DNA from: Gammaproteobacteria bacterium
GTDB lineage: Bacteria > Pseudomonadota > Gammaproteobacteria > Steroidobacterales > Steroidobacteraceae
DNA length: 64,000 bases
Assembly: GCA_027365225.1 (NCBI GenBank)
Contig: DAHXNV010000005.1
Span: 27,004-91,003 of the forward strand
Direction of reading: 5' to 3'
The notes under the pieces are model-generated. The model was given only the letters and a program-made list of their open reading frames with translations. It did no database searches and was not told the origin of the DNA. Every line of letters starts with the position of its first letter. Positions within the stretch are counted from its first letter, which is position 1. This document shows positions 13,075 through 29,618 of the stretch, one piece after another. A program made the position numbers and the translations under genes.

Positions 13075-15138
13075 ATGCGTCGCAAGCTCTCCATGCTCGA
13101 CCGCTCGCTGTTTGGACCGGCGCTCGCCGATTCGGTGCGCAAGCTCGACCCTAGGGTGCAGTGGCGCAATCCGGTGATGTTCGTGGTGTATCTGGGCAGC
13201 ATCCTCACCACGGGCCTGTGGATCGAGGCGCTGTTCGGGCCAGGGGAGGCACCGGCGTGGTTCATCTTCAGTGTCGCGATCTGGCTGTGGTTCACGGTGC
13301 TGTTCGCAAATTTTGCCGAGGCGCTGGCCGAAGGGCGCAGCAAGGCCCAGGCGGCGAGCCTCAAAGGCCTGAAGCAGACCGTGGAAGCCAAGCGGCTTGC
13401 CGACCCCGCCGACCGTACACGGGTGACGCGGGTGCGGGCCGACGGGTTGCGCAAGGGCGATGTCGTCCTGGTGGAGGCGGGCGATTTCATTCCCGGCGAC
13501 GGCGAAGTCGTCGAGGGAGCCGCCTCGGTCGATGAGAGCGCGATCACCGGCGAGTCCGCCCCCGTCATCCGCGAGTCCGGCGGAGATTTCTCCTCCGTCA
13601 CCGGCGGCACGCGCGTGCTGTCGGACTGGATCGTGGTGCGCATCTCGGTCAATCCGGGCGAGACCTTCATCGACCGCATGATCGCCATGGTCGAGTCTGC
13701 CAAGCGGCAGAAGACCCCGAATGAGATCGCGCTCACCATCCTGCTCGTGGCGCTCACCCTGGTATTCGTGTTCGCCACCGCGACGTTGCTGCCGTATTCA
13801 CTCTACAGCGTCGCGGTCACCAAGCTCGGCACCCCCGTCACGATCACCGCACTCATCGCGCTGCTGGTGTGTCTGATTCCGACCACCATCGGCGGCCTGC
13901 TCTCGGCGATCGGGGTGGCCGGCATGAGCCGCATGATGCAGGCCAACGTGATCGCGACCTCGGGCCGCGCGGTCGAAGCGGCCGGCGATGTCGACGTGTT
14001 GCTACTCGACAAGACCGGCACGATCACGCTGGGCAACCGGCAGGCCGCGGCGTTCATTCCGGCCGACGGCGTGACCGATGAGGAGCTGGCCAGTGCCGCC
14101 CAGCTGGCCTCGCTCGCCGATGAGACGCCGGAAGGGCGCAGCATCGTCGTGCTGGCCAAGCAGCGTTTCAAGCTGCGCGAGCGGGATCTCACCGCGTTGC
14201 GCGGGACGTTCGTGCCCTTCTCCGCGCACACACGCATGAGCGGCGTCGACATCCACGGGCGCCAGATCCGCAAGGGTGCGGCGGACGCCATCCGCAAGCA
14301 GGTCGAATCACTCGGACAGGACTTTCCGCAGGCGGTGCTCGAGGCGGTGAAAACGATCGCGCGCCGGGGTAGTACGCCGCTGCTGGTGAGCGACGGCCCG
14401 CGGGTGCTCGGGATCATCGAGTTGAAGGATATCGTCAAGGGCGGCATCAAGGAGCGGTTCGGCGAGCTGCGCCGCATGGGCATCAAGACGGTGATGATCA
14501 CCGGCGACAATCCGCTGACCGCCGCGGCAATCGCCGCCGAGGCCGGTGTCGATGACTTTCTCGCGGAGGCGACTCCGGAGGCGAAGCTGAAGCTCATTCG
14601 CGCCCACCAGGCCGAAGGCCGGCTGGTGGCGATGACCGGCGACGGTACCAACGACGCGCCGGCGCTCGCGCAGGCCGACGTCGCCGTCGCGATGAACACC
14701 GGGACTCAGGCGGCCAAAGAGGCCGGCAACATGGTCGACCTCGACTCCAACCCCACCAAGTTGATCGAGGTGGTGGAGACGGGCAAACAGATGCTGATGA
14801 CGCGCGGCTCGCTCACCACCTTCAGCATCGCCAACGACGTCGCCAAGTATTTCGCGATCATCCCGGCGGTGTTCGCCACCACCTATCCGCAGCTCAATGC
14901 GCTCAACGTCATGCATCTGACCAGCCCGATCTCGGCGATCCTCTCGGCGGTGATCTTCAATGCGCTCATCATCGTTGTCTTGATTCCGCTCGCGCTGAAG
15001 GGGGTGCGCTACCGGCCGCTCGGCGCCGGTACGCTGTTGCGCCGCAATATGCTGATCTACGGCCTGGGCGGGATCATCGTGCCGTTCCTCGGCATCAAGT
15101 TGATCGACATGGGCCTGACTTTCCTTCATCTGACCTGA
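13075..15138 (+). CDS. kdpB: K+-transporting P-type ATPase subunit B
   Basis: A 687-residue P-type ATPase, the energy-coupling subunit. The phosphorylated aspartate lies in [14 protein letters not shown]; the actuator-domain loop is [10 protein letters not shown], the hinge [18 protein letters not shown] and the [11 protein letters not shown] motif completes the phosphorylation domain. The N-terminal serine-regulated TGES-type loop is intact, so the pump should be active. It lies one base after kdpA. Confidence 0.98.
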
Positions 15139-15233
15139 GCGGTGATGCCATGACAGAATTGCCCGGAGCAATTTTCGATGCGACGGCGCCGCGCTCCCAC
15201 AGGGGCGAGGTCCGGGAAGGACCGGCTAAATCC

Positions 15234-15815
15234 ATGCTGCGCCCCGCGGTCGTGCTGCTGCTCATCATGACGGCGCTGACCGGCGTCGTTTATCCGCTCG
15301 TCATTACCGCCATTGCGCAAGTGGTGTTCCCGGTCCAGGCCGGCGGCAGTCTGATCCTGCGTGACGGCAAGGTCATCGGGTCGCGCCTGATCGGCCAGCC
15401 GTTCAGTGCCGCGGGGTACTTCTGGAGCCGACCCTCGGCGAGTACCCCGCAGCCGTACAACGGGCTGGATTCCGGCGGTTCCAATCTCGGACCGTTGAAT
15501 CCGGCCCTCATCCAGGCCGTCAAGGCCCGTATCGCCGCCTTGCGGGCCGCCGATCCCGGTAATACCGCGCCGATCCCCGTGGACCTGGTGACCGCCTCCG
15601 CCAGCGGGCTCGATCCGGACATCAGTCTGGCGGCCGCCTACTACCAGGCCGGCCGGGTCGCGCGCGCCCGCCATTTGAGCCTCGCCACGGTGCGTGGTCT
15701 GATCGGCGCACACGCCCGGTACCCCTGGCTCGGGGTGCTTGGCCAGCCCCGCGTGAATGTGCTGGAGCTCAATCTGGCCCTGGACGCCGTGACACAGCCG
15801 GCGGGCGACAAATAG
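15234..15815 (+). CDS. kdpC: K+-transporting ATPase subunit C
   Basis: A 193-residue subunit with one N-terminal membrane helix ([21 protein letters not shown]) and a periplasmic domain carrying [28 protein letters not shown] and [15 protein letters not shown], all conserved in KdpC. It acts as a catalytic chaperone of the pump. The ORF track starts at 15150, adding 28 residues; the start at 15234 aligns with known KdpC proteins and has a GGAAGGA element 12 bases upstream. The upstream ATG at 15150 remains possible. Confidence 0.93.
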
Positions 15816-15872
15816 CCGGCGTAATGAGCGAAGGGCGCGCGCGCCACGGGCCTCCCGGCGGATAATGCCGGG

Positions 15873-18572
15873 GTGAATGCTCCGACCGCCGATCTCAGAC
15901 CTGATCCGGATCAACTGCTCGCCCAAGTCAAGGCCCAGGAAGAGCGGGCCACCCGGGGGCGGTTGCGTATCTTTTTCGGCTCCTCCGCAGGGGTCGGCAA
16001 GACCTATTCCATGCTGCGGGCGGCCCGCTCGGAGCGGGCCGCGGGCACCGACGTGGCCATCGGCTATCTCGAGCCCCACGGCCGCCTCGAGACCGAGCAG
16101 CTGGCCGAAGGGCTGGAGCGCCTGCCGACGCTGTCGGTCGCCTATCGCGGCATCGTGCGCCAGGAGTTCGACCTCGATGCGGCGCTCGCGCGCCGGCCGG
16201 CCATCGTGTTGGTCGATGAGCTGGCGCACTCCAATCTGATCGGTGGCGTACCGCAGCCGCGCCACCCGAAGCGCTGGCAGGACATCGAGGAACTCCTCGT
16301 GGCCGGCATCAACGTCTGGACCACGGTCAATGTCCAGCACCTCGAGAGTCTGAACGACCTGGTCTTTCAAACCACCGGCGTGCGTCAGACCGAGACGCTC
16401 CCCGACCGGGTTTTCGATGAAGCCGACGACATCGAGCTGATCGATCTACCGGCCGACGATCTGATCGCGCGGTTGCATGCCGGCAAGGTGTATGTGTCCG
16501 ACGCCGTGGCGGCCGCTTCCGAGCGCTTCTTCCGCAAGTCGAACCTGATGGCGCTGCGCGAGATCGCGCTGCGCCGGGTCGCCGAGCGGGTGGAGGCCGC
16601 GTCCCGCGCCCTGCACACCGGTCATGCCCGCGGCCGTATTGTCGGGGACCGTATTCTTGTGGCGGTCGGCCCGGACGATCAGGCCGAGCAGCTGGTGCGC
16701 ACGGGTAAACGCATGGCCGACGCTCTCGCGGCGAGCTGGCTGGTGGTGTATGTCGAGACGCCGGCCCTTTTGCGTCTGTCCGAAACATTGCGCAATCGTA
16801 GGATCAACGTGCTGCGATTGGCCGAATCCCTCGGCGCGGAGACGGTGACCCTGGACGGACCGTCCGCGGCGGCGGCTCTGCTGGAGTACGCGCAGACGCG
16901 CCGTGTCACACGCGTTCTGGTCGGTGCGCCGAAGCGGCGCGGCTGGCGCGCATGGACGCGCGCATCCACCTCGACCGTGCTGGTGAAGCAGGCACGGGGA
17001 TTCGACGTGATCGTGGTGGCGCCGGCGGGAAGGACGAAGCGGGTGGCGCCGGCCCACCTGCCCGCCGGGGGCTTCCAGGCGGACATTCCGTGGGAGCGGT
17101 ACGGCTGGGCGGCGGGCGTAAGCGGGCTGTGCACGCTGCTCGCATTCGCGATGTACCCGCATTTCGATCTGTCGAATCTCGCCATGGTCTATCTGCTCGG
17201 CGTCACGGTGGCGGGCCTGCGCCTCGGGCGCGGCCCCTCGGCGCTCACGGCCGTGCTCAACGTGCTGTTGTTCTGTTTTTCCTTCGTGCCCCCGAGGTTC
17301 ACGTTCGCCGTCGCCGACTTCCAGTACTTCATAACCTTTGCGGCCATGCTCATCATCGGCCTGGTGATTGCGACCCTCACCGCCAACGTGCGCCAGCAGA
17401 CCCGGGTCGCCGGTGCACGCGAGCGGCGTACCGCCGCGCTGTATGCCATGAGCCGTGAGCTGGCGGTGACGCGTGGGATCGAGAACATGGCGGGTGTGGC
17501 CGTGCGGCACGTGGCCGAGGTATTCGACTGCCGGGCCGTGGTGCTGCTGCCGGATGTGGCGGGCAAGCTGCACTGCCCGCGCGGGCAGCCGTCGGAGCAT
17601 TCGCTGCGTGGCGCCGATCTTGCCGTGGCGCAGTGGGTCAACGATCATGGCCAGCGCGCCGGCCTGGGCTCCGATACTCTGCCGGCGGCACCGGCGCTGT
17701 ACGTGCCGCTCGGAGACGAGCAGCGCGCGACCGGAGTGTTGGCGGTGTTGCCGGCCAATCCGCGGCGGGTGTTGCTGCCGGAGCAGAGCCAGCTGCTGCA
17801 TACCTTCGCCGGGCAGATTGGGCTCGCGCTCGAGCGCGCCCGCTTCGCCGATGCGGCGCAGGCCTCGAGCCTGGCCGTGGAGCGCGAGAGCCTGCGCAAC
17901 ACGCTGCTGGCGTCGATCTCGCACGACTTGCGCACGCCGCTCGCGGTCATGGTCGGCGCCGCCAGTACGCTGACCGAGCGCGGCGAGGCACTCCAGCCGA
18001 GCAAGCGCCGGGAGTTGGCCGCCTCCATCGAGGTGAAGGCGCGCGAGATGTCGGAGCTCGTGTCCAACGTGCTCGACCTGATGCGGTTCCAGTCCGGCGA
18101 AGTGCCGCTGATGCGCGATTGGCAGAGCGTCGAGGATCTGGCCGGCGCCGGACTGCAGCGCATCCAGGAGCGACTGCAGGATCACACCGTGGATCTGAAG
18201 ATCCCGCCCGACCTGCCGCCGGTGTACGTCGACGCGGGCTTCGTGGCGCAGTTGTTCGCCAATCTGTTCGACAACCTCGCGAAATACACTCCCCCAGGCA
18301 CGCATGCCTGGGTGTCGGCGATCAACGAGGGCGCCAGCGTGCGCGTGGTCGTCGAGGACGACGGTCCGGGGCTGCCGGCGGGCGATCCCGAGCAGCTGTT
18401 CGAGAAGTTTCAGCGCGGCAGCGGCGAGGGCGCGGTCGCCGGGGCGGGCCTGGGACTGACCATCTGCCGCGCGATCGTGCGGGCCCATGGCGGGGAGATC
18501 TCGGCGCGGCGTCGGGACGGCGGCGGTGCCCGGTTCGAGTTCACGCTGCCGGCGCGGGAGCCGCGCGCTTGA
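15873..18572 (+). CDS. kdpD: potassium-sensing histidine kinase KdpD
   Basis: An 899-residue sensor with a GTG start. The N-terminal KdpD domain has a Walker A motif (GSSAGVGKTYSML, about residues 33-45) and VDELAHSN; a USP-like domain follows, then four clustered membrane helices (about residues 405-500), a GAF-like region, and the kinase core. The phosphorylated His is in SISHDLRTPL near residue 683, with N-box LFDNLAKY and G motifs DDGPGLPAG and GAGLGLTI. It reads K+ limitation or osmotic stress and phosphorylates KdpE. It follows kdpC by 57 bases in the same operon. Confidence 0.96.
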   Translation: MNAPTADLRPDPDQLLAQVKAQEERATRGRLRIFFGSSAGVGKTYSMLRAARSERAAGTDVAIGYLEPHGRLETEQLAEGLERLPTLSVAYRGIVRQEFDLDAALARRPAIVLVDELAHSNLIGGVPQPRHPKRWQDIEELLVAGINVWTTVNVQHLESLNDLVFQTTGVRQTETLPDRVFDEADDIELIDLPADDLIARLHAGKVYVSDAVAAASERFFRKSNLMALREIALRRVAERVEAASRALHTGHARGRIVGDRILVAVGPDDQAEQLVRTGKRMADALAASWLVVYVETPALLRLSETLRNRRINVLRLAESLGAETVTLDGPSAAAALLEYAQTRRVTRVLVGAPKRRGWRAWTRASTSTVLVKQARGFDVIVVAPAGRTKRVAPAHLPAGGFQADIPWERYGWAAGVSGLCTLLAFAMYPHFDLSNLAMVYLLGVTVAGLRLGRGPSALTAVLNVLLFCFSFVPPRFTFAVADFQYFITFAAMLIIGLVIATLTANVRQQTRVAGARERRTAALYAMSRELAVTRGIENMAGVAVRHVAEVFDCRAVVLLPDVAGKLHCPRGQPSEHSLRGADLAVAQWVNDHGQRAGLGSDTLPAAPALYVPLGDEQRATGVLAVLPANPRRVLLPEQSQLLHTFAGQIGLALERARFADAAQASSLAVERESLRNTLLASISHDLRTPLAVMVGAASTLTERGEALQPSKRRELAASIEVKAREMSELVSNVLDLMRFQSGEVPLMRDWQSVEDLAGAGLQRIQERLQDHTVDLKIPPDLPPVYVDAGFVAQLFANLFDNLAKYTPPGTHAWVSAINEGASVRVVVEDDGPGLPAGDPEQLFEKFQRGSGEGAVAGAGLGLTICRAIVRAHGGEISARRRDGGGARFEFTLPAREPRA

Positions 18573-18580
18573 CCGAAGCG

Positions 18581-19273
18581 ATGCACCAGGTGCTGGTGGT
18601 CGAAGACGAGCCGGCCATCCGCAACGTGTTGACGGTTCTGCTCGAGGCCGAGGGCTACCGGATCATCGAGGCCGATACGGCGCTGCGCGCCGAGATCGAG
18701 AGCCGCAGCCACAAGCCGGACCTGCTGCTGATCGATCTGGGACTGCCCGACGGCGATGGCATCGCCATCATCCGCCGGGTGCGCGCCTGGTCGCCGATGC
18801 CGATCGTCGTCTTGTCGGCGCGCACGCAGGAGGACCAGAAAGTCGCCGCGCTGGATGCGGGCGCAGACGACTACGTCACCAAGCCGTTCAGCGCCCGCGA
18901 GCTGCTGGCGCGAGTCCGCGCGGCGCTCAGGCGCAACGTCCGCGGCGCGGAGCCGGCGGGCGTGCTCAACCTCGGGCCGGTGCAGATCGATCTGGAGAAG
19001 CGCGAGGCCCGCGGCGCGGCCGACGAGATCCACCTCACGCCGCTCGAGTACCGCTTGATCGAGTGCCTGGCGCGCCACCTTGGCGCCATCATCACGCAGC
19101 AGCAGCTGATTCGCGAGGTGTGGGGACCGGAGCGCCTCGGCGACAGTCGCGGTCTGCGGGTGTGCATCATGAATCTACGCGGCAAGATCGAGCCGGACCC
19201 GCGTAAGCCGCGCTACCTGATGACCGAGGCGGGTCTCGGCTACCGGCTGCGCAGCGACGACAAGCCCGGGTAG
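18581..19273 (+). CDS. kdpE: response regulator KdpE
   Basis: A 230-residue OmpR/PhoB-type regulator. The receiver domain (residues 1-115) has the acidic pair in VEDEPAIR, the phosphorylated Asp52 in LLLIDLGLPDGDG and Lys in VTKPF; the C-terminal winged helix carries LTPLEYRLIECLARH and TEAGLGYRL, typical of KdpE. It activates kdpFABC transcription. ATG 18581 was chosen; a TTG at 18569 that overlaps the kdpD stop is an alternative in the same frame. Confidence 0.95.
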   Translation: MHQVLVVEDEPAIRNVLTVLLEAEGYRIIEADTALRAEIESRSHKPDLLLIDLGLPDGDGIAIIRRVRAWSPMPIVVLSARTQEDQKVAALDAGADDYVTKPFSARELLARVRAALRRNVRGAEPAGVLNLGPVQIDLEKREARGAADEIHLTPLEYRLIECLARHLGAIITQQQLIREVWGPERLGDSRGLRVCIMNLRGKIEPDPRKPRYLMTEAGLGYRLRSDDKPG

Positions 19274-19318: not shown

Positions 19319-19765
19319 TCAGGTGAGCGACACGACCAGCTTGGCGCTGTGGCTGCGCCAGTGGATTGGAATCACGAAGGCGCGCGCGCCCGGCGGCTGC
19401 GAAATCTGCGGCTTCTCGCCGGCAAACACACTCGGCACCGAGATGACGAAATCATGTCCGAAATCGCGCCGCGCGTTGCCCGAGATGGTGTTGGCGACCT
19501 CGCCGACCAGGTCGCGCATGCTCTCGTGGCTGAAGTCGCTCTCCTGCATCTTCATCAGCAGCACCGTCAGCATGGCGCGCGGCGCGGTGAAGTACACCAC
19601 GCCCTCGCGCTTGCCGCTGACGTTGATCATGCCGGTGTAATCGTGCATGGCGGTCTCGCCCTCGAGCAGATACGGCGAGCCGATCGTGGCCGGCTGCTGC
19701 GCGGCCACTTCGAAGTACCGGGTCGTACCGTCGACGAAGGTCTTCAGTTCCTCTTCCCGCAGCAT
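19319..19765 (-). CDS. cheX: CheX-like phosphatase domain protein
   Basis: A 148-residue protein of the CheC/CheX/FliY family, phosphatases of CheY-type receivers. The family helix with its acidic and Asn residues is seen in LVGEVANTISGNARRDFG (the E-x-x-N catalytic pair of CheX), with INVSGKREGVVYF before it. It is the last gene of a four-gene minus-strand operon, 31 bases after the CheY-like receiver, which is the probable substrate. No flagellar or other chemotaxis genes are near, so the output may be a process other than swimming. Confidence 0.85.
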   Translation of the reverse strand: MLREEELKTFVDGTTRYFEVAAQQPATIGSPYLLEGETAMHDYTGMINVSGKREGVVYFTAPRAMLTVLLMKMQESDFSHESMRDLVGEVANTISGNARRDFGHDFVISVPSVFAGEKPQISQPPGARAFVIPIHWRSHSAKLVVSLT

Positions 19766-19796
19766 GACTAGCTTCTCGGTGCTCGTGTGCCCGTGA

Positions 19797-20186
19797 TCAA
19801 TACATCAGCTCGGTGATCGCTTCGTTCAGCTGCCGATCGCTGAACGGTTTGTTGAGGAAGCCGTTGGCGCCGCGCTCCATGGCTTCCACCGCCGTAGCCT
19901 TGTCCGCGAGCGCCGAAATCACCAGTATGCGCACCGCGGGCTTCAGTTTCACCAGCTGCGTGATGCACTCGATGCCGTCCATCTGCGGCATGGTGAGATC
20001 CATGGTGACCAGGTCCGGGTCGGTGCGGCGGGCGAGCTCCAGCGCCTCGAGGCCGTTGGCCGCGGTTCCCACCACCTGCAGATCGTCGAACTGCTGCGAG
20101 CGCTCGATGCGCCGCCGCACGATGTTCGAGTCGTCGACGATCAGCAGCTTCACGGGCCGCCTTTCGAGGGGATTGCCGCTGCTCAT
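19797..20186 (-). CDS. CheY-like single-domain response regulator
   Basis: A 129-residue stand-alone receiver: acidic pair in LLIVDDSNIVRRRI, phosphorylation site Asp63 in VTMDLTMPQMDG, conserved Ser/Thr region in LVISALADKATA and Lys in FLNKPFS. There is no output domain, so it signals by protein contact. It lies between the CheA-like kinase (17 bases upstream) and CheX (31 bases downstream), forming a kinase-receiver-phosphatase set. Confidence 0.92.
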   Translation of the reverse strand: MSSGNPLERRPVKLLIVDDSNIVRRRIERSQQFDDLQVVGTAANGLEALELARRTDPDLVTMDLTMPQMDGIECITQLVKLKPAVRILVISALADKATAVEAMERGANGFLNKPFSDRQLNEAITELMY

Positions 20187-20203
20187 GGCTGCCGTTTCCG
20201 CCG

Positions 20204-22324
20204 CTAGGCCACCGCGGTCTGGCTGGGCGCGGGCAGCGCGATCTTGAAGCGCGTGAAGCGGCCCGGATGAGTGCTCACCCCGATCCGTCCGCCGAGCGCG
20301 TAGACCGACTTGGCCACCACGTCCATGCCGGCGCCGCGGCCGGCATCCATCGTCACTTCGGCGCGGGTCGAGAAGCCGGGCTTGAAGATCAGCGCCAGGG
20401 CCGAGCGATTGTCGAGCTCGGCCGCCTGCTCCTCGGTGAGCAATTGCTTGCGCACGGCCGCTTCCTTCAGCGCCTCGGGCGAGAGGCCGGCGCCGTCGTC
20501 CTCGAATACCAGCTCGCAGCCGCTCTCCACGCGGCGGAACTGCGCGCGCACCTGGCCCGTGGCGGATTTCGAGGCGGCGCGGCGCACCGCATCCGGCTCG
20601 ATACCGTGCACGGCCGCGTTGCGCAGCATCTGAATGAGACAGTCCTTGACGGTGGGCAGGTAGTTGACCGGTACCTCCTCGAGGCCCTCGAGGCTCAGCT
20701 TGAACGGCTTGCCGTGGTCCTCGGCGAGCTTGCGGGCCAGCCCCTGCAGGGTCGTGGCGAGCTCGACTGTGCCGTTCGGGCGCTCGGTGCCCGGCAGACG
20801 CAGGACCGGCGTGCTCAGGGTGCCGTCGGAGGTGGACGCTCCGTCCTTCAGGGTGCTCAGGCGCAGGATCATCTCGCGCACCGAGCGCAGATGAGCCAAC
20901 AACTCATCGAGCTTCAGCACCAGCGGCAGGAAGTCGTTGCCGGTGAGCTCGCTCTTGCCTTTGAGCTCCTCGACCATGTCCTCCAGATGGTGCACGCGCT
21001 GGGCGATGCTCATCAGGTTCAGCGCCGATGCCTCGCCCTTGATCGAGTGCAGCTCACGCGACAGACCGGCGAGCTTGCTGCTGAACTCGGCATGGCTGCG
21101 CGCCGGCTCTTTGAGGATGGCGTTGACGTGCTTCAGGCCCGCGGAGGCGGTGTCGAGGAATCCGCCCACCTGCAGCGGATCGGAGTGCAGCATGCTCACC
21201 ATCATGTCGATCTGAGCGTTGGCGTTCTCCTGGGCCGCGTGCAGTTCGCGCGCGAGCATGACGTTCGGAGTGATATCGGCGACGGTGCACAACACGTGCT
21301 TGACGCCCTTCGGGCCCAGCACGCGGTGGAAGTTGAATTGCAGGAAGTGAGCTTCCTTGCCGCCCCGGCCGTTGTCCAGCATGACTTCGAGCTGACCCAG
21401 CGGGTTGATGCTCTTCATCAGGTTTTCGTGGGCGCGCTCGCCCCACAGCAGCTTGATGTACTTGGTGGCGGTGGCGAGCGTCGCCGGCGATACTTTGCCG
21501 TGTAGCAGTTCCTCGAACGTCAGGCCGGCAAAATCCTCGCGGCCGAACAAGTGGTTCAGCGCCTGGGACCAGACCGCGCCGATGCGGTAATCGGCATCGA
21601 GCAGGAACAGGCCCTCGCGTACCGTGTGCAGGATGTCGCGGGTCTGCTCCTCGGCGGCGCGCGCCGCACGCTCGCCGCGACTGCGCGCGAGCTGCAGATA
21701 AGCGGCCGCCGCGCCGAGCAGCAGCACCGCCAGCACGCCGGCCGAGAGCAGCAGTCGCAGCCGCGAGGCGGCGCTCGAGGTGCGCTTCTGCAGCGCGGCG
21801 CTGAGGGTGGCGAGCCGCCGGTGCAGCGCCGGCGCGCGGCCTTGTGCGAACAGCTCCGCGCGGCGCACTTGCGTGTAATAGATCTTGCCGCTCACCGACA
21901 GCGAGCTGCCGAAGTCGGTGTCCGAGTACGGCTCGCCGGAATAGGCGAGCACCGGCGCGAGGACCGGGGTATAGGCCTTCCACAGATGCCCCACCGCGCG
22001 CAGCACGGACGGATCCACGTCCGGTCGGCGCTCGAGCGCGGCCAGACTGCGATCGAATCCGGCCACCGAGTCGGCGAGTTCCTGATGAACCCCGCCGGTG
22101 TACTCGAGTGTGCCGAGCCGCTCGCGCAGCGCCGTCAGCTGCTGTGAGACTTCCGCCGGATAGGCCTCCAGGAGACTTGCGTGCTGCAGCAACGCGACGT
22201 TGGCGCGGATTCGTGTGGCCAGCCGGAAGCCGACGATCAGCACCAACGCCATCAGCGCGGCCAGCAGCGCGCCCGCTCCGGCAGTGAGCAGCCGGCGGAT
22301 TCGATCAGCGCCCGAGGATTGCAT
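20204..22324 (-). CDS. membrane CheA-like hybrid histidine kinase (PAS-HPt-HATPase)
   Basis: A 706-residue protein. Two membrane helices (about residues 14-36 and 188-208) frame a periplasmic helical domain; a PAS-like segment follows (about 230-350), then an HPt domain with His426 in LSRELHSIKGEASAL and a CheA-type ATP-binding domain (MLRNAAVHGIE, EDDGAGLSPE, GRGAGMDVV). CheA normally is cytosolic and couples to receptors through CheW; here sensing, transfer and kinase parts are in one membrane protein and no CheW or P3/P5 domain is obvious. Start at 22324 has an AGGTGG site and lies 13 bases after the TonB-like gene. The partner is the CheY-like receiver downstream. Confidence 0.85.
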   Translation of the reverse strand: MQSSGADRIRRLLTAGAGALLAALMALVLIVGFRLATRIRANVALLQHASLLEAYPAEVSQQLTALRERLGTLEYTGGVHQELADSVAGFDRSLAALERRPDVDPSVLRAVGHLWKAYTPVLAPVLAYSGEPYSDTDFGSSLSVSGKIYYTQVRRAELFAQGRAPALHRRLATLSAALQKRTSSAASRLRLLLSAGVLAVLLLGAAAAYLQLARSRGERAARAAEEQTRDILHTVREGLFLLDADYRIGAVWSQALNHLFGREDFAGLTFEELLHGKVSPATLATATKYIKLLWGERAHENLMKSINPLGQLEVMLDNGRGGKEAHFLQFNFHRVLGPKGVKHVLCTVADITPNVMLARELHAAQENANAQIDMMVSMLHSDPLQVGGFLDTASAGLKHVNAILKEPARSHAEFSSKLAGLSRELHSIKGEASALNLMSIAQRVHHLEDMVEELKGKSELTGNDFLPLVLKLDELLAHLRSVREMILRLSTLKDGASTSDGTLSTPVLRLPGTERPNGTVELATTLQGLARKLAEDHGKPFKLSLEGLEEVPVNYLPTVKDCLIQMLRNAAVHGIEPDAVRRAASKSATGQVRAQFRRVESGCELVFEDDGAGLSPEALKEAAVRKQLLTEEQAAELDNRSALALIFKPGFSTRAEVTMDAGRGAGMDVVAKSVYALGGRIGVSTHPGRFTRFKIALPAPSQTAVA

Positions 22325-22337
22325 AGGATCCACCTGA

Positions 22338-24422
22338 CTAGTTCGGCAGCACGAAGCGGATTTCGGTGCGGACCGGCACATTGACCGGCTGGCCCCGGAA
22401 TTTCGGTCGGGTATAGCGCCACTGGCGGATCGCCTGGAGCGCTGCGCGATTGAAGATGGCGCCGGGTCTGGAGTTGATCACCTGCAGCTGCCGGGTACGG
22501 CCCTGGGCGTCGACGATGTATTGCACCGTCACTTCGCCCGATAGGCCGCCGGCAAGCGCGCGCGACGGATAGGCGGGCGCGACGTAGTGCGTGCGGCGCA
22601 GTTGCCCGGCAACTTCAGCCAGCTGCGCCGCCGTGGGCGCCGCGGCCGGCCTCACGGTCTGCGCGGCCGCGGCCAGAGCCGCTGGACTGGCGCCCCAGCG
22701 GCGTGCCGCGGCCAGATCCTCCCGCGCGAGCGCGCGCTGGCCGGTGCGGGTGGCCGACTCCGCCTGTGTCAAGAGCGCGGTCACGAGCTGGTCGCGCAGC
22801 ACATCCGCGCCGGCGCGCTGCGCCGGATCGGGGTGCGACGCGTCGATCACGCTCAGGTAGTACGCGGCACTGTCATGCGCGGGGGCGACGAGGGCGCCGC
22901 TGGCGAGCCGGGCGCGGGCCCGCGCGAGTAGCTGGCGCAGCTGCGCCTCGGCGGTATGCGTTTGCACGCGGGCCACCTGGTGCCGAACCGAATCGATCTG
23001 CTGCGCGGTCGCGCCGGCCAAGCGGGCCGCGTTCAGCCATTGGTTCTGCTCGCCGGCGTGTCCGGCCAAGCCGGCCTGCTGGGCCTGGCCGATCAACGCG
23101 CCGATGAGCGCCTGGGCAGCGGCGCCGGTGGCCGCCGCTTGGGGCGCGAAGACGCGCAGCTTTGCGAGCGCGGACTCGGCGCTGTGCGCGCCGGTGAGCC
23201 GGCCGGCGGCAATCCGCGTGTTGACACTCTGCGCCAGGACTTTTACCCGCGCACCGTGCCGCAGCGTCGTCAGCTGTTGCTGCCAGGATTCGATCTGCGC
23301 CGTCGGCACCCCCCAGCGGGCCGCCCGGGCGATGAGCGCGGGCGCCGCGCCGAGCTTGCCCTTGCTCGAGAACGCATGTTCGACCAGCGCGGTCGCGAGC
23401 TGGATCCGGAACGGTCCGACGTGAGTATTGCTGGGCTCGGCCAGCTGCAACGTGGCGAGCGCCAGCGATGCGCCGGCGTATTGGTCGCGGGACAGATCCA
23501 CGCCGAAGCGCGAAATCAGCACGTTGGCGACCCGCTGCAGGCCGTTGCGGGCCTCGGCGTTGTTGGGATCGACGGCCAGCACCGAGCGGTAGTAGACCAA
23601 TGCGTTGGCGCCTTTCGGCGCCGTGAAGTGCCGCTCGAACATCGCCTGGCTGGCCTTGATGAGCAGGTCGGAGACGCGCCCGCGCACGATCGAGGTGTCG
23701 ACCTTCGGTCGACTCAGCGCGGCGTACTTGTTCGCGGCGACCGTCTCGGGCCGAGCGGGCGCCAAGTGGGCCGGACGCGTGTGCGTCAACCACCAGAGTG
23801 CGCCGGCACCCAGAGCCAGCACCAGCACACCGAGCGTCACGGCGATCAGTTTGCCGTGGCCGCCGGAGGACGCCTCGGAACGGGCGCCGTCCGTTGTGGG
23901 AGTTTGTGGGCTGGCGCGCTCGGGCAGCGCTCGACGCGGTGCGGGCCGAAGCGACTGCCGGGGCGAACTCTGTTCGCCGTCGTCCGATAACGCCGCCTCG
24001 ATGACTGCGCTTGTTTTCCCGGGCTCCATCGGTAGCGGCAGAACCGCAAAAACCCGGGTGCCCTTGACCGCGGCCGCCACGGTCTTCTCCGTGTCGGTCT
24101 CGGTGAAAACCAGGATCTTGGCGGTGCCCACACGCTCGGCGGCGCGTTCGACATTGGCGCGAACATCACCGGTCTCACGCGCATCGATCGCCAGGATCTG
24201 ACGGCCCCGGGCACCTTCCAGATGTCCGATCGCCACATCGAGCGAGTCCGCCGGGTGGACGCTGGCGCGCCCGCCGAGGACTTCCCCGAGCTCGAGCAGG
24301 AAATCATCGCGCGTCGTCAGCGCGGCGAGGTCGGCCGCATGCTGCGCGCCCCTCGGCGTCACCTCTGCCACGGCGCTTTCGCGGGCGGAATCACGAGACT
24401 CATTCGGTGCCGGATGTGCCAC
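22338..24422 (-). CDS. TonB-C-terminal membrane protein with receiver-like N terminus
   Basis: A 694-residue protein starting at a GTG (24422) preceded by GGAGACGGGTT. The N-terminal 130 residues (LTTRDDFLLELGEVLGG... ILAIDARE...ILVFTETDTE) look like an alpha/beta receiver-like fold without the usual Asp/Lys set. A membrane helix (about residues 192-213) follows, then a long Ala-rich helical tetratricopeptide-like region, and a C-terminal TonB domain (AYPSRALAGGLSGEVTVQYIVD and IRQWRYTRPKFRGQPV). TonB domains contact outer-membrane receptors. It heads an operon with a CheA-like kinase, a receiver and CheX, so it may link envelope state to that cascade. The track's ATG at 24542 gives 40 more residues with no family support. 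Confidence 0.75.
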   Translation of the reverse strand: MAHPAPNESRDSARESAVAEVTPRGAQHAADLAALTTRDDFLLELGEVLGGRASVHPADSLDVAIGHLEGARGRQILAIDARETGDVRANVERAAERVGTAKILVFTETDTEKTVAAAVKGTRVFAVLPLPMEPGKTSAVIEAALSDDGEQSSPRQSLRPAPRRALPERASPQTPTTDGARSEASSGGHGKLIAVTLGVLVLALGAGALWWLTHTRPAHLAPARPETVAANKYAALSRPKVDTSIVRGRVSDLLIKASQAMFERHFTAPKGANALVYYRSVLAVDPNNAEARNGLQRVANVLISRFGVDLSRDQYAGASLALATLQLAEPSNTHVGPFRIQLATALVEHAFSSKGKLGAAPALIARAARWGVPTAQIESWQQQLTTLRHGARVKVLAQSVNTRIAAGRLTGAHSAESALAKLRVFAPQAAATGAAAQALIGALIGQAQQAGLAGHAGEQNQWLNAARLAGATAQQIDSVRHQVARVQTHTAEAQLRQLLARARARLASGALVAPAHDSAAYYLSVIDASHPDPAQRAGADVLRDQLVTALLTQAESATRTGQRALAREDLAAARRWGASPAALAAAAQTVRPAAAPTAAQLAEVAGQLRRTHYVAPAYPSRALAGGLSGEVTVQYIVDAQGRTRQLQVINSRPGAIFNRAALQAIRQWRYTRPKFRGQPVNVPVRTEIRFVLPN

Positions 24423-25033
24423 AACCCGTCTCCAGATTCTTATGGATGCAACCGTCGTCGCAGGGCCCCGGGGCCGGGTGGAGTCCGGCCCTTGACCGCA
24501 GGACAGCGCGGCGCGCCAGGATGCGAGGCGTGCTGAATACATGAAACCCGCAGCGCGTCGGGTCTGCAGTGTCGCCGTTCACAGAATTCGAGCGGGTGAG
24601 CCGCGTCGGGGCCAATGGCCGGCCCCGTGGGGTGCCCGCAACGGGCTGGCCGGTGCGCAACCGCTCAGCGACCGGCGCAGGACTGAAGGACGGCGGCGCG
24701 GCCGCGCGCCCGCGCGGTTCCGCTGCGAAGGGCCGCCGCCGCTTCGCTCCACTTTCGCCCGATCGGGTGCGCTCGGGGAATCTCGACAGCGCGGCGCTAG
24801 CGCTCGACGATGGAACGTTGACGGGCGAGCGCCCGCGGTCTCGAAGCGCCGCCGCACGGCGTGCCATGACTCCGGAACGAATCGATCTAGCGGCCGTCTT
24901 ACCGAAGACAGGGGCGGCGGAATCGCGAGTCCGATCGCGGTCGCGCCCTGCGAGGCGTTCATTCCGTTCCGCTACGGGCGAAGGCGCAGCATTCACGGCC
25001 GCCACTGCCGTTATAAAACGGGAGGTAAGGGCG
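24423..25033. other. 611-base gap upstream of prkA
   Basis: This stretch separates the divergent TonB-like and prkA genes. It has high coding-like GC bias and open frames on both strands, but their translations are Arg/Ala-rich low-complexity sequence without family motifs. It must carry the prkA promoter; near its end are CCGTTATAAAACGGGAGG, giving a GGGAGG ribosome-binding site for prkA, and an AT-rich TTATAAA that could be part of a -10. No clear -35 or sigma-54 box was found. Confidence 0.4.
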
Positions 25034-27079
25034 ATGCGATCACGTGCCAGTCATCCCGACCAGACGCCGCTCGGCGCCTGCATCGAACACAGCGCTTTCA
25101 TCGAGTCCCTGAGTTCTTTCAGCCGCCTGCATCGCGCGCAGCACTGGGAAGGTACTTTCGGACAGTTTCTCGCGGACATTCTTCCGGCGGCTCCGGCGGC
25201 CCTGGCGCGTACCAGCCACGAGTACATCTGGGACATGCTGCGCTGGTATGGGCGAGGCGCCGAGAGCTCCCGCCCCGCCGGGGGCGAGCGGCGCGAAGGC
25301 GCGGCTGTGAATCCCGGCGCGCATGCGGGCCGGCAAGAGCAGCCGCGCGAGGAGCGCGCCAGCGAGCTGTTCAAGCGCGAGCTGTTCGGTATCGACACGC
25401 CGCTTGCCCGGGTGATCGAGTATTTCAAGGCCGCCGCCGGGGGCTCGGACGTCGGACGCCGGCTGCTGCTGCTGCTCGGACCGCCCTCGGGTGGGAAGTC
25501 GACCATCGCGATCCTGCTGAAGCGCGGCCTGGAGGAATACAGTCGCACCGAAGCGGGCGCGCTGTACGCGCTCAAAGGCTCGCCGCTGCACGAGAGTCCG
25601 CTCAACCTCATCCCGGCGAGCCTGCGGGCCGAGTTCCGCGAGCGCTACGGCGTCACCGTGCAGGGCGAGCCCTCTCCCTGGGCGCGCGATTACCTCGAGC
25701 GCGAATTCGCAGGTGACTTCCTCAACGTTCCGGTCGAGCGGGTCTTTCTGTCCGAGGCTGCGCGTTTCGGCATCGGCACGTATGCGCCGCACGATCCGAG
25801 CACCGCCGACATCGCCGACCTAGTGGGCTCGGTGGATCTCGCCAAGGTGGCGCAGATCGGCGACGAGGGGGATCCGCGCGCCTGGTCCTGGTCCGGGGCG
25901 GTGTACGCCGCCAGCCGCGGTCTGCTCGAGATGATCGAGATCCTGAAGGTCAAGCGCGAGTTCCTCTATCTGCTGCTGACGCTGACTCAGGAGAAGAACG
26001 TCAAGGTCGCGCGGTTTCCGCTCATTCACCTCGACGAGACGGTGTTGGCGCACACGAACCTCGCCGAGTTCCACCGCTTCGTGCAGGAAAAAGAGAACGA
26101 GGCGCTGCTCGATCGCATGGTGATCATCAAGGTGCCGTACGCGCTGTCGTACCGGGACGAATCGCGCATCTATCAGAAGCTCGTCTCGGGCGCGCCGGCG
26201 TTCCGCGACGTCCACCTCGATCCGCACGTGCTGAACCTCGCCGCGGTGTTCGCCATCCTGACCCGTCTGACGCGGCCCGAGCGCGAAGGCCTCGACATCG
26301 CCGGCAAGTTGCGGCTGTACGCCGGCGAGACCATCGAGGGCGCGACCGAGACCGAGGCGATCCGGCTGCGCGCGGAATCGCCCGACGAAGGGCTGACCGG
26401 GGTCAGCCCGCGGTTCGTGATCAACGCCATCTCCACGGCCATCACCCGCGGCACGACCCGCAGCCTCACCAGCATGGACCTGCTGCTGGCGTTGAAGGAC
26501 GGTATCGAGAGCGATGCCCGCATGGAGGCGAAGCAGAAGAAGGCGTGGATCGACCATCTGGTCACGGCGCGCAAGGAGTTCTACAACCGCTGGGTCAAGG
26601 AAGACGTGCATCGGGCGATGTTCGCCTCGTTCGAGGAGGAGGCGCAGCAGTTGCTGGAGAAATACCTCGACGAAGTGGAGGCATCGCTCGATCACCGCCA
26701 GGTCACCGATCCGATCACGGGCGAAAGCCGGGCGGCGGACGAGCGCTTGCTGCGCTCCGTGGAGGAAAAGATCAAGGTGTCCGACTCCGGCAAGCTGTCG
26801 TTTCGTCAGGAAGTCGTGCGCAAGGCCATGGTGGCGTTCAAAACCGGTGAGAAATTCAATCTGGCCAGTCACGCGCGCATGCGCGAGGCGATCGAGCAGT
26901 ACCTGTTCGAGGAACGGCGCGACGTGCTGCGGCTGGTGACCTCGGCCGCACGCCCGGACGAGGAGGCAAAACAGAAGATTTCCGTGGTGCAGCAGCGCCT
27001 GATCAGTGAGTACGGCTACGACGAGCACAGCGCGAAGGAGGCGCTGAGTTACGTCACCACCCTGCTCGCGCAGGAGTAG
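25034..27079 (+). CDS. prkA: PrkA-family serine protein kinase (YeaG-like)
   Basis: A 681-residue protein with an N-terminal AAA-like PrkA domain (Walker A GPPSGGKST near residue 150, preceded by RASELFKRELFGIDTPLARVIEYF) and a C-terminal kinase-like domain with QYLFEERRDVLRLV. YeaG/PrkA proteins act in nutrient-starvation and stationary-phase adaptation. ATG 25034 has a perfect GGGAGGTAAGG site; the ORF track begins 155 codons earlier in low-complexity sequence. It starts the operon prkA-yeaH-spoVR, the conserved order in proteobacteria. E. coli YeaG is 644 residues, so the N terminus is slightly longer here. Confidence 0.94.
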   Translation: MRSRASHPDQTPLGACIEHSAFIESLSSFSRLHRAQHWEGTFGQFLADILPAAPAALARTSHEYIWDMLRWYGRGAESSRPAGGERREGAAVNPGAHAGRQEQPREERASELFKRELFGIDTPLARVIEYFKAAAGGSDVGRRLLLLLGPPSGGKSTIAILLKRGLEEYSRTEAGALYALKGSPLHESPLNLIPASLRAEFRERYGVTVQGEPSPWARDYLEREFAGDFLNVPVERVFLSEAARFGIGTYAPHDPSTADIADLVGSVDLAKVAQIGDEGDPRAWSWSGAVYAASRGLLEMIEILKVKREFLYLLLTLTQEKNVKVARFPLIHLDETVLAHTNLAEFHRFVQEKENEALLDRMVIIKVPYALSYRDESRIYQKLVSGAPAFRDVHLDPHVLNLAAVFAILTRLTRPEREGLDIAGKLRLYAGETIEGATETEAIRLRAESPDEGLTGVSPRFVINAISTAITRGTTRSLTSMDLLLALKDGIESDARMEAKQKKAWIDHLVTARKEFYNRWVKEDVHRAMFASFEEEAQQLLEKYLDEVEASLDHRQVTDPITGESRAADERLLRSVEEKIKVSDSGKLSFRQEVVRKAMVAFKTGEKFNLASHARMREAIEQYLFEERRDVLRLVTSAARPDEEAKQKISVVQQRLISEYGYDEHSAKEALSYVTTLLAQE

Positions 27080-27087
27080 CGGCGGGT

Positions 27088-28260
27088 ATGACCGGGACCA
27101 ACGACACGCAGATTTCCGCCGATGGCGCCAAATGGTACGAGCTGTTCTCGCGCGGCGCGCGCGATTGGCTGCGCCATGACGAGAAGGTCCGCGAGGCCGT
27201 ACGGCGGCACTTGCCGCAGGCCGTGGCGGGCGGCGAACTGATCAGCGGCGGGGCCCGCACGGTGCGCATTCCCGTGCGCATGCTCGAGCACTATCGATTC
27301 CGCTTGCGTCCCGCGGCGCAGCGCCAGGGCGCCGGTCAGGGCCAGGCCAAGCCCGGGGACGTGTTCGACGACCCCGCCCGGCCGCGTACCGCCGGCGGCA
27401 AGGGTCCGGGCGGCGAAGACGAGGGCGAGGTGCAACTGTTGCTGGAGTTCAAGATCGACGACATCGTGGAGTGGCTGTGGGAGGAGATGCGTCTGCCGAA
27501 TCTCACCCCCCGCAGTGGACCGTCCGAAGAGCAGGAGTGGACGCGCCAGGGCTGGGATCGCCGCGGCGCGCGCTCGCGGCTCGATCGGCGCCGCTCGTTC
27601 AAGGAGCTGGTCAAGCGCCGCGCAGCGCCGGGAGCGGTGCCGACGTTCACCGACGAAGATCTGCGCTATCGCCAGCTCGCTCTGCGGCGCCGGCCGGCGG
27701 TGCGCGCGCTGGTGTTCTTCATGCTCGATGTGTCGGGTAGCATGTCCGAGCGCGACCGCCAGCTCGCGAAGTCATTCTTCTTCTGGACGGTGCAGGGGTT
27801 GAGGCGGGAGTACCGCGCGCTCGAGACGGTGTTCGTCGCGCACACCACGCAGGCCTGGGAATTCACCGAGCCGGAGTTCTTCCAGGTCAGCGGCACGGGC
27901 GGCACGGTCGCCTCGAGTGGCCTGCGCAAGGTGAGCGAGATCCTGCATGAGCGATTCGACCTGCACAGTTACAACGTCTATTTCTTCTATGCCTCGGACG
28001 GCGACAATGCTGTTACCGACGCCGATGCGGCCCGGGCCGCGCTGGCGGCGCTGGCGGGCGCAGCCTGTTTCTGCGGCTACGTCGAAGTGGCGGCCGGTCT
28101 GTCGCGGCACCTCGATACCGAGACCGGCCGGTTGTTCGCCGATCTCGCCACGGTTGGCGCGAGCGTCGGCAGCTGCGCGCTGGCGGATTTCGACGACGTG
28201 TGGAGCGCGATCCGGCAGTTCTTCACGGCGCAGCACCCGGTGCGCGCGCCGGGCGGATGA
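27088..28260 (+). CDS. yeaH: YeaH/YhbH family protein (DUF444)
   Basis: A 390-residue cytosolic protein with a von Willebrand A-like domain: the metal-ion-dependent adhesion motif DxSxS is in FMLDVSGSMSERDRQLAK near residue 215-230, preceded by SFKELVKRRAAPGAVP. DUF444 proteins are partners of PrkA/YeaG kinases and are co-regulated in starvation. A Gly/Gln-rich linker (RQGAGQGQAKPGD) lies near residue 80-95. It sits eight bases after prkA and its stop overlaps the spoVR start (ATGA), indicating coupled translation. Confidence 0.94.
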   Translation: MTGTNDTQISADGAKWYELFSRGARDWLRHDEKVREAVRRHLPQAVAGGELISGGARTVRIPVRMLEHYRFRLRPAAQRQGAGQGQAKPGDVFDDPARPRTAGGKGPGGEDEGEVQLLLEFKIDDIVEWLWEEMRLPNLTPRSGPSEEQEWTRQGWDRRGARSRLDRRRSFKELVKRRAAPGAVPTFTDEDLRYRQLALRRRPAVRALVFFMLDVSGSMSERDRQLAKSFFFWTVQGLRREYRALETVFVAHTTQAWEFTEPEFFQVSGTGGTVASSGLRKVSEILHERFDLHSYNVYFFYASDGDNAVTDADAARAALAALAGAACFCGYVEVAAGLSRHLDTETGRLFADLATVGASVGSCALADFDDVWSAIRQFFTAQHPVRAPGG

Positions 28261-29618
28261 GCGGCATGGAGTGGCAGGATTACACCGCGCGGATCGAGCA
28301 GCTCGCGCGCAAGTCCGGACTGCGCTTCCATCCCGTCGAGTTCGAGGCCGTCCCGGATGCGTTCATGATGGAGGTGGCGGTGTACGGCCTGCCGGTGCGC
28401 ATGCCCCACTGGTCATTCGGCGTGCGCTACATCTATCAACTCATCCAGCGGCACATGGGGCATTCGCGGCTGTTCGAGGTGGTCTTTCCCGGCAACCCCG
28501 GCCATGCCTATCTCGCCGCCAGCAACGGGCTGGCGGAAAACGTGCTGGTGACGGCGCACGTGCTCGGACACGCCGATTTCTCGCGCAACAACTTGTTGTT
28601 TCAGCGCTGCCAGGGACAGGTGAGCGAGCGCATCGTCGAGCATGCCGCGCAGCACGCGCGCCAGATTCAGCAGGCGATCGACCTGCACGGGCTGGAGCGC
28701 GTCGAGCTGGTGCTCGACGCGGCGCTCGCGCTGGAGCAGCACATCGACGTCGATCAGCCGGTGCGGCGGGCGCGTTACCGCGAGTACGCCGAGCCGCCCA
28801 AGACCCTGGCCGACGATGCCTTCCGCCGGCGCTTCGCGGCGCTGGAGCCGCTCACCACCGAGGCCGGGGCGCGCCAGCGGCGGCGCGCGCCGGTGCCGCC
28901 GCATCCGGAGCGCGACCTGTTGTGGTTCGTGGCGCAGTACGGCCCGGAGCTGGAGAGTTGGGAGCGGGACATCTTCCTCGCGGTGCGCGAGGAGTCGTTC
29001 TACTTCTATCCGGTGTTCGCCACGCAGATCATGAACGAGGGCTGGGCGTCGTATTGGCACGCCCGGCTGCTGCGCGAGGCCGATTTTATTCCGCAGCAGG
29101 CCTACGTCGATGCGATCAAGTGCCATTCCGACGTGGTGCGCCCGGTGGCCGCCGATCAACAGATCGCGCTCGCGCTCAATCCCTACCATCTCGGCTTCGC
29201 GATTTGGGAGCGCATCGTCGCGGCCGAGGGGCTGGAGGCGGCCTGCACCATTCGTGCCGAAGACGACGACTTCGCGTTCGTGCGCAATCATCTGACTCGC
29301 GAGCTGGCCGCGGAGCTGGAATTGTTTCGTTACCGCGCCCGCGACGGCCGGATCAAGGTGCTCGCGCAGGACATCGATGCGCTGCACGAGGCGATTCTCG
29401 CTCCCAAGTACAATTTCGGCGCGCCCACCGTGTTGGTCGAGAACGTCCGGGTGGATGGCACGCTGCAGCTGCGCCACGATCATGCGGTGGACGGCCGCGG
29501 ACTCGATCTTGAGCGCGGCCGTAAAGTGCTCGAGTATCTGTACCGAATCTGGCGCCGGCCCGTGCGGTTGAGCACCGTCGATGCCGACGGGCGGACGCTG
29601 GAGATCTCGGCGCCGTAG
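28257..29618 (+). CDS. SpoVR family protein (YcgB-like)
   Basis: A 453-residue protein with the SpoVR pattern: MPHWSFGVRYIYQLIQRHMGH near residue 45, HVLGHADFSRNNLLF, and EESFYFYPVFATQIMNEGWASYWH in the centre, plus NPYHLGFAIWERI. The role of the family outside spore formers is unclear; it is consistently linked to PrkA and DUF444 proteins. The start at 28257 overlaps the yeaH stop; the track's start 19 codons upstream would lie inside yeaH. Completes the prkA-yeaH-spoVR operon. Confidence 0.94.
   Translation: MSGMEWQDYTARIEQLARKSGLRFHPVEFEAVPDAFMMEVAVYGLPVRMPHWSFGVRYIYQLIQRHMGHSRLFEVVFPGNPGHAYLAASNGLAENVLVTAHVLGHADFSRNNLLFQRCQGQVSERIVEHAAQHARQIQQAIDLHGLERVELVLDAALALEQHIDVDQPVRRARYREYAEPPKTLADDAFRRRFAALEPLTTEAGARQRRRAPVPPHPERDLLWFVAQYGPELESWERDIFLAVREESFYFYPVFATQIMNEGWASYWHARLLREADFIPQQAYVDAIKCHSDVVRPVAADQQIALALNPYHLGFAIWERIVAAEGLEAACTIRAEDDDFAFVRNHLTRELAAELELFRYRARDGRIKVLAQDIDALHEAILAPKYNFGAPTVLVENVRVDGTLQLRHDHAVDGRGLDLERGRKVLEYLYRIWRRPVRLSTVDADGRTLEISAP

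Follow-up and report, generated by a model that had tools for sequence, protein, structure and literature searches.

The operon described here raises the question of what a protein with a TonB C-terminal domain does beside a CheA-type membrane kinase, a CheY-type receiver and a CheX phosphatase. The window, meaning the whole analysed stretch of 64,000 nucleotides, is part of contig DAHXNV010000005.1. At positions 19319-24422 it contains four minus-strand genes, separated in the order TonB-like gene, kinase, CheY and CheX by 13, 17 and 31 bases, which reproduces the coordinates and gaps given in an earlier note on this DNA. The Pfam matches for all four products lie above cut-off (Table 1), and the GTG start of the TonB-like gene is kept in congeners.

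The earlier note read the operon as a self-contained relay in which a TonB domain stands in for a receptor. As a gene set, the unit is indeed self-contained. Neither CheW nor a methyl-accepting chemotaxis protein (MCP) is encoded near the operon; within the metagenome-assembled genome (MAG, 65.6% complete), contig C152 is the only one with CheW, MCPs are confined to C152 and C137, and the operon itself is located on C174. The CheX of the window is the sole CheX found in this assembly. Membership in a twitching or gliding chemosensory set (Pil-Chp/Frz) was ruled out, given the absence of a CheW domain from the kinase and of a linked CheW or MCP. The operon is flanked by convergent kdp genes (KdpB to KdpE) at 13075-19273 and by a divergent PrkA-YeaH-SpoVR-type set at 24569-29618, all named by eye. 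Many congeners have homologues of the kdp and/or PrkA-YeaH-SpoVR-type flanks on one or both sides.

Table 1. Genes, domains and functional residues of the operon, in window coordinates.
Feature	Position	Strand	Details
TonB-like gene, receiver-TM-helical repeat-TonB_C	22338-24422	minus	694 aa, GTG start
Receiver-like domain of TonB-like protein	23976-24335	minus	residues 30-149; AlphaFold (beta-alpha)5, pLDDT mostly >93
Single TM helix of TonB-like protein	23784-23846	minus	residues 193-213; AlphaFold, alignment
TPR-like helical repeats of TonB-like protein	22605-23675	minus	residues 250-606, presumed periplasmic; AlphaFold helices
TonB C-terminal domain	22347-22595	minus	residues 610-692; Pfam TonB_C 4e-19
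Membrane sensor kinase gene, HPt and CheA-type ATPase	20204-22324	minus	706 aa
Kinase periplasmic helical domain	21755-22216	minus	residues ~37-190; alignment, N-box scan, model; boundaries approximate
Kinase PAS-like domain	21275-21622	minus	residues ~235-350; AlphaFold beta pattern
Kinase HPt domain	20834-21178	minus	residues 383-497, phospho-His H426; Pfam Hpt 3e-6
Kinase CheA P4-type ATPase	20216-20773	minus	residues 518-703; Pfam HATPase_c 3e-11
Single-domain CheY-type response regulator gene	19797-20186	minus	129 aa; Pfam Response_reg 1e-29
CheY receiver residues D18, D19, D63, S91, K113	within 19797-20186	minus	all functional positions (DD, D, T/S, K) occupied
CheX phosphatase gene	19319-19765	minus	148 aa; Pfam CheX 1e-19

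The kinase is modelled as a TM helix, periplasmic helices, a second TM helix, a PAS-like domain, an HPt domain and an ATPase domain, after which the protein stops. Its HPt histidine is present in 125 of 127 relatives, and its ATPase motifs are near-invariant across approximately 125 loci. The ATPase is assigned to the CheA type by NCBIfam CheA models and by a Foldseek match to the CheA P4 domain (TMt 0.87). A membrane kinase with both HPt and CheA-type ATPase domains, as had been proposed, is supported. Pfam gave no match to the CheW-like P5 domain (PF01584), and the linker between HPt and ATPase consists of approximately 20 low-confidence residues with no Pfam P3 match. The PAS assignment is supported by relatives, namely by PAS_4 (0.0045) in L070 and PAS_9 (2e-10) in the Amt-fused kinase of L116. 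It is well supported that the kinase carries its own sensor, made up of a PAS fold and of a periplasmic domain flanked by two TM helices, since the kinase-CheY-CheX trio also occurs without any TonB gene.

The identification of a lone receiver and a CheX phosphatase likewise stands, with family matches and functional residues in accord. Four of the five active residues of CheY are identical in 123/123 relatives, and the fifth, S91, is Ser in 122 and Thr in one. CheX contains the ExxN motif (E89/N92), with Glu in 121/121 relatives and Asn in 120/121; it is predicted to dephosphorylate the neighbouring CheY-P. Within the genus of the window, conservation among the four products is highest for CheX and lowest for the TonB-like protein.

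The operon is far from confined to one strain. The order TonB-kinase-response regulator (RR)-CheX is found in 75 loci, and in 2 more that are cut off before CheX by contig ends, the median gaps being 16, 24 and 25 bases. Its hosts belong to the genus of the window and to related uncultured soil Gammaproteobacteria/Steroidobacteraceae. In 10 further loci, from Steroidobacter, Peristeroidobacter and others, the TonB gene is located downstream of CheX (kinase-RR-CheX-TonB). With approximately 87 conserved TonB-linked loci, a strain-specific oddity is ruled out. The trio without a TonB gene is present in approximately 20 syntenic loci and in most of a class-wide sample, with hosts among Cellvibrionaceae, Spongiibacteraceae, Alcanivoracaceae, Agaribacterium, Marinicella, Immundisolibacteraceae, Methylotenera and Neisseria, as well as another family of the window's own order (L031/L037). 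As the trio occurs without TonB across gamma- and betaproteobacteria, kinase-CheY-CheX is the core unit. Its spread is patchy, a search with a CheX alignment (E <= 1e-20) giving matches in 12 of 369 gammaproteobacterial genomes. Neisseria species have no flagella, and therefore the CheY of the Neisseria trio cannot act on a flagellar motor. One locus (L117:4742-12431) contains two tandem trios and a third CheX, in addition to two related proteins of approximately 300 aa, one of which was tested and has no Pfam match.

The TonB-less relatives point to nitrogen compounds as the original input. PilJ-type nitrate sensors share a published N-box, [IVL][ND]xAGxQRML[ST]Q (PMC6381276). PilJ matches above cut-off are common among the TonB-less kinases (L031, L047, L089, L119 and L126), and the strict N-box is found in 14 of 42 TonB-less kinase ORFs, or 21 of 42 with a looser pattern. 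Three Methylotenera kinases, not scored as strict, carry the near-match INLSGRQRM[LM]SQ. A motif scan of 88 ORFs of TonB-linked kinases detected the strict N-box in none. Specifically, the window's kinase has neither a Pfam PilJ match nor an N-box, the PilJ family exceeds its cut-off in 0 of 41 congeners, and the position of the nitrate-binding Arg is aligned with Glu in the window's kinase and with Gln in most congeners. The periplasmic domain of the window's kinase appears, by alignment, to be derived from a PilJ-type position with loss of the N-box.

The gene neighbourhoods agree with this ancestry. Genes for a nitrate ABC permease and ATPase (ntrB and ntrCD; TIGR01183 and TIGR01184) adjoin the trio in L063 and L073, NarK and NirB are encoded near it in L126, and Amt in L118, all above curated cut-offs. 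Homologues of the nitrogen-gene queries also occur in L081 and L049. This neighbour test was post hoc, having been designed after some neighbours were seen, and its queries were taken from L063, L126 and L118; matches there are by construction, and those in L049, L081 and L116 are new. In L116:6500-11614 (JAKLJL010000001.1), the genes for an RR, CheX, an Amt-PAS-HPt-CheA-type ATPase fusion of 1060 aa and a receiver-guanylate cyclase follow one another, apparently forming an ammonium-sensing relay. The same queries had no match in 49 TonB-linked loci (768 kb). On the strength of these comparisons, probable descent of the module from nitrate- or ammonium-responsive kinase-CheY-CheX modules is well supported.

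In a tree of kinase and CheX, every TonB-linked locus falls into a single clade (support 100, 26 rows), within which the upstream and downstream arrangements are sister clades (99 and 98). This clade is adjoined by L037/L038, whose box is degenerate, and then by the N-box kinases. TonB linkage requires one change on this tree and N-box status four. Two points weigh against the history proposed below. Loss of the N-box and TonB linkage fall on the same branch and count as a single event, the box of the nearest TonB-less relatives, L037/L038, being degenerate already, and several other TonB-less lineages (Neisseria, L118 and L122) are devoid of the N-box as well.

These results bear on the earlier proposal that the TonB-like protein is a sensory receptor replacing the chemoreceptor for the kinase. 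Such a role would fit the disappearance of the nitrate motif exactly where TonB linkage became fixed, and the retention of the linkage in two gene arrangements. However, both a conserved periplasmic domain and a PAS fold are retained in the kinase, which has no CheW-like domain for receptor coupling, and on its cytoplasmic side the TonB-like protein carries a receiver instead of a signalling coiled coil. Furthermore, approximately 20 relatives have the trio without TonB, often with PilJ/N-box or Amt sensors beside nitrogen genes, and the TonB-like protein in turn exists without the trio. Since the trio also exists without TonB, simple receptor replacement was dropped as the default reading, and it is now regarded as improbable.

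The TonB-like family is wider than the module; full-length copies without the trio occur across the order, and most of the family is encoded elsewhere. An AU test rejects a single clade for the linked copies in the tree of TonB-like proteins (p 0.0005), where the downstream copies group with orphan copies. A single recruitment of one TonB paralog was dropped accordingly. Repeated recruitment may have created the linkage, or a TonB gene linked since ancient times may have been duplicated and relocated; the two are equally possible, as L062 and the orphan L130 share 3' neighbours (malQ- and glgX-like, judged by eye). Two orphan genes of the receiver-TM-helical repeat-TonB_C type are located near T2SSB/GspB genes (L131:6274-10969 and L138:1924-8286), the former also near a GspA-like AAA gene. 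This location beside type II secretion (T2SS) genes suggests a link to secretin assembly. TonB-like versions of 950-970 aa with an extra N-terminal receiver occur in L137:5322-8240 and L142:6648-9491, that of L137 matching Pfam Response_reg (4e-13).

The completeness of the trio without a TonB gene, together with the mostly separate encoding of the TonB-like family, would also fit a TonB gene that is a mere co-transcribed neighbour of a functional kinase-CheY-CheX trio. Against this stands its adjacency to the trio in every sufficiently long locus of the TonB-linked clade, despite a moved position and only ~23% identity between upstream and downstream TonB-like proteins, as well as gaps near 16 bases. 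A bystander role is consequently given little probability.

From its N terminus, the TonB-like protein comprises a (beta-alpha)5 domain of receiver type, a single TM helix, a long helix stack and a TonB C-terminal domain. The C-terminal domain matches 6i97_D in Foldseek (TMt 0.91), and weak TPR matches for the helical repeats come from relatives. The N terminus has no Pfam match; its confidently predicted fold matches receiver domains in Foldseek (TMt ~0.7). A TonB-C-terminal membrane protein with a receiver-like N terminus, as first described from the DNA, is hence confirmed. ExbB/D-driven TonB proteins have a conserved polar Ser/His motif in the N-terminal TM helix. In the present protein this helix is rich in Ala, Gly, Val and Leu and lacks the motif, a His being present in the core of the helix in 2 of 33 aligned rows, which argues against classical energised transport.

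Within the receiver, D80 at the end of beta3 is present in 33/33 aligned proteins. In the same alignment (33 rows), the window's clade has neither the acidic pair nor the beta5 Lys, and thus the window's protein lacks the full functional set (phospho-Asp, acidic pair, Thr/Ser and Lys), D80 notwithstanding. Receivers of the Steroidobacter clade retain one acidic residue and the beta5 (HKP) Lys. With the acidic pair and Lys lost, phosphorylation of the receiver in the window's clade is unlikely, which makes protein docking more plausible.

An opposite direction of signalling may be considered, with the TonB-like protein as the output. Its receiver would be phosphorylated by the HPt domain or bound by CheY-P, and the TonB_C domain and helical repeats would act on the outer membrane or peptidoglycan, e.g., in secretin assembly or on TonB-dependent receptors. 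Receivers usually act downstream, the topology fits an effector, and both the invariant D80 and the residues kept in Steroidobacter agree with such a role, as do the orphan family members beside GspA/GspB secretin-assembly genes. However, the missing residues render phosphorylation doubtful in the window's clade, and a dedicated CheY and CheX already provide output and reset. The output role is therefore possible, but on balance unlikely.

The preferred direction is that the TonB-like protein feeds the kinase. In the proposed mechanism, the membrane class II (CheA-type) kinase would hand phosphate from the HPt His to the single-domain CheY, and CheX would remove it, leaving CheY-P as the module's output. 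With its own periplasmic and PAS domains, the kinase would need neither CheW nor a separate chemoreceptor. Within the lineage of the Steroidobacteraceae, it would have lost the nitrate N-box, and the module would have become linked to the receiver-TM-helical repeat-TonB_C envelope protein. The receiver of this protein would most likely dock on the kinase, on the HPt or ATPase side, so that its periplasmic state biases kinase activity. We infer the phosphate flow, the action of CheX on this CheY and the topology; the docking, its direction and the target of CheY-P are speculative. Osp, a single-domain receiver-like protein, inhibits the kinase activity of CckA, to whose transmitter domain it binds (PMC9430884), and this may serve as a precedent, not as proof, for receiver docking. 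Taken as a whole, a nitrogen-derived class II kinase-CheY-CheX module coupled to an envelope protein via a degenerate receiver is considered the best explanation, with an even chance of being correct. More tentatively, and with a rather low probability, a nitrogen-sensing relay may have turned into an envelope-status relay, in which the TonB domain reads outer-membrane or peptidoglycan engagement and the degenerate receiver sets kinase activity. If true, this would be a route for the TonB fold to feed a phosphorelay.

Searches of the open-access literature found no account of a membrane kinase of HPt/CheA type together with CheX, in line with the earlier note, which knew of no described system of this composition. 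Apparently, a family of nitrate and ammonium sensors undescribed in the literature searched is spread over gamma- and betaproteobacteria. In it, chemotaxis chemistry (HPt, CheA ATPase, CheY and CheX) would form a membrane sensor that stands alone, with no CheW arrays. Relatives with an N-box or an Amt fusion supply a known candidate ligand for the kinase family, and one lineage would offer a natural experiment in which an envelope protein took over from a small ligand as the input.

Several known systems can be compared. McpN and NarX are PilJ-type nitrate sensors (PMC6381276), and the TonB-less relatives carry a PilJ domain and N-box at the corresponding place; in contrast, the window's kinase has neither, and its output is an HPt/CheY/CheX relay rather than NarL or an MCP. 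The Amt-PAS-HPt-ATPase protein of L116, encoded beside an RR and CheX, resembles Amt-histidine kinase fusions such as Ks-Amt5 (mentioned in PMC12918730), from which the window's kinase differs by having no Amt domain. With the TonB energy transducer, the TonB-like protein shares the C-terminal domain in sequence and fold, but it has an N-terminal receiver, a TM helix without the S/H motif and helical repeats instead of a proline-rich spacer. GltG/GltJ-type proteins of Myxococcus combine a cytoplasmic signalling domain, one TM helix and a periplasmic TonB-like domain. The likeness to them is one of general topology; in the window's protein the cytoplasmic domain is receiver-like, and the operon encodes kinase, CheY and CheX. 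Finally, the kinase differs from chemotaxis CheA in its membrane location and in having periplasmic and PAS sensors of its own; it has no CheW-like P5 and no detected P3, and its operon has no CheW or MCP gene nearby, yet it shares with the chemotaxis CheA/CheY/CheX system the same HPt phosphodonor, P4-type ATPase, single-domain receiver and ExxN CheX phosphatase.
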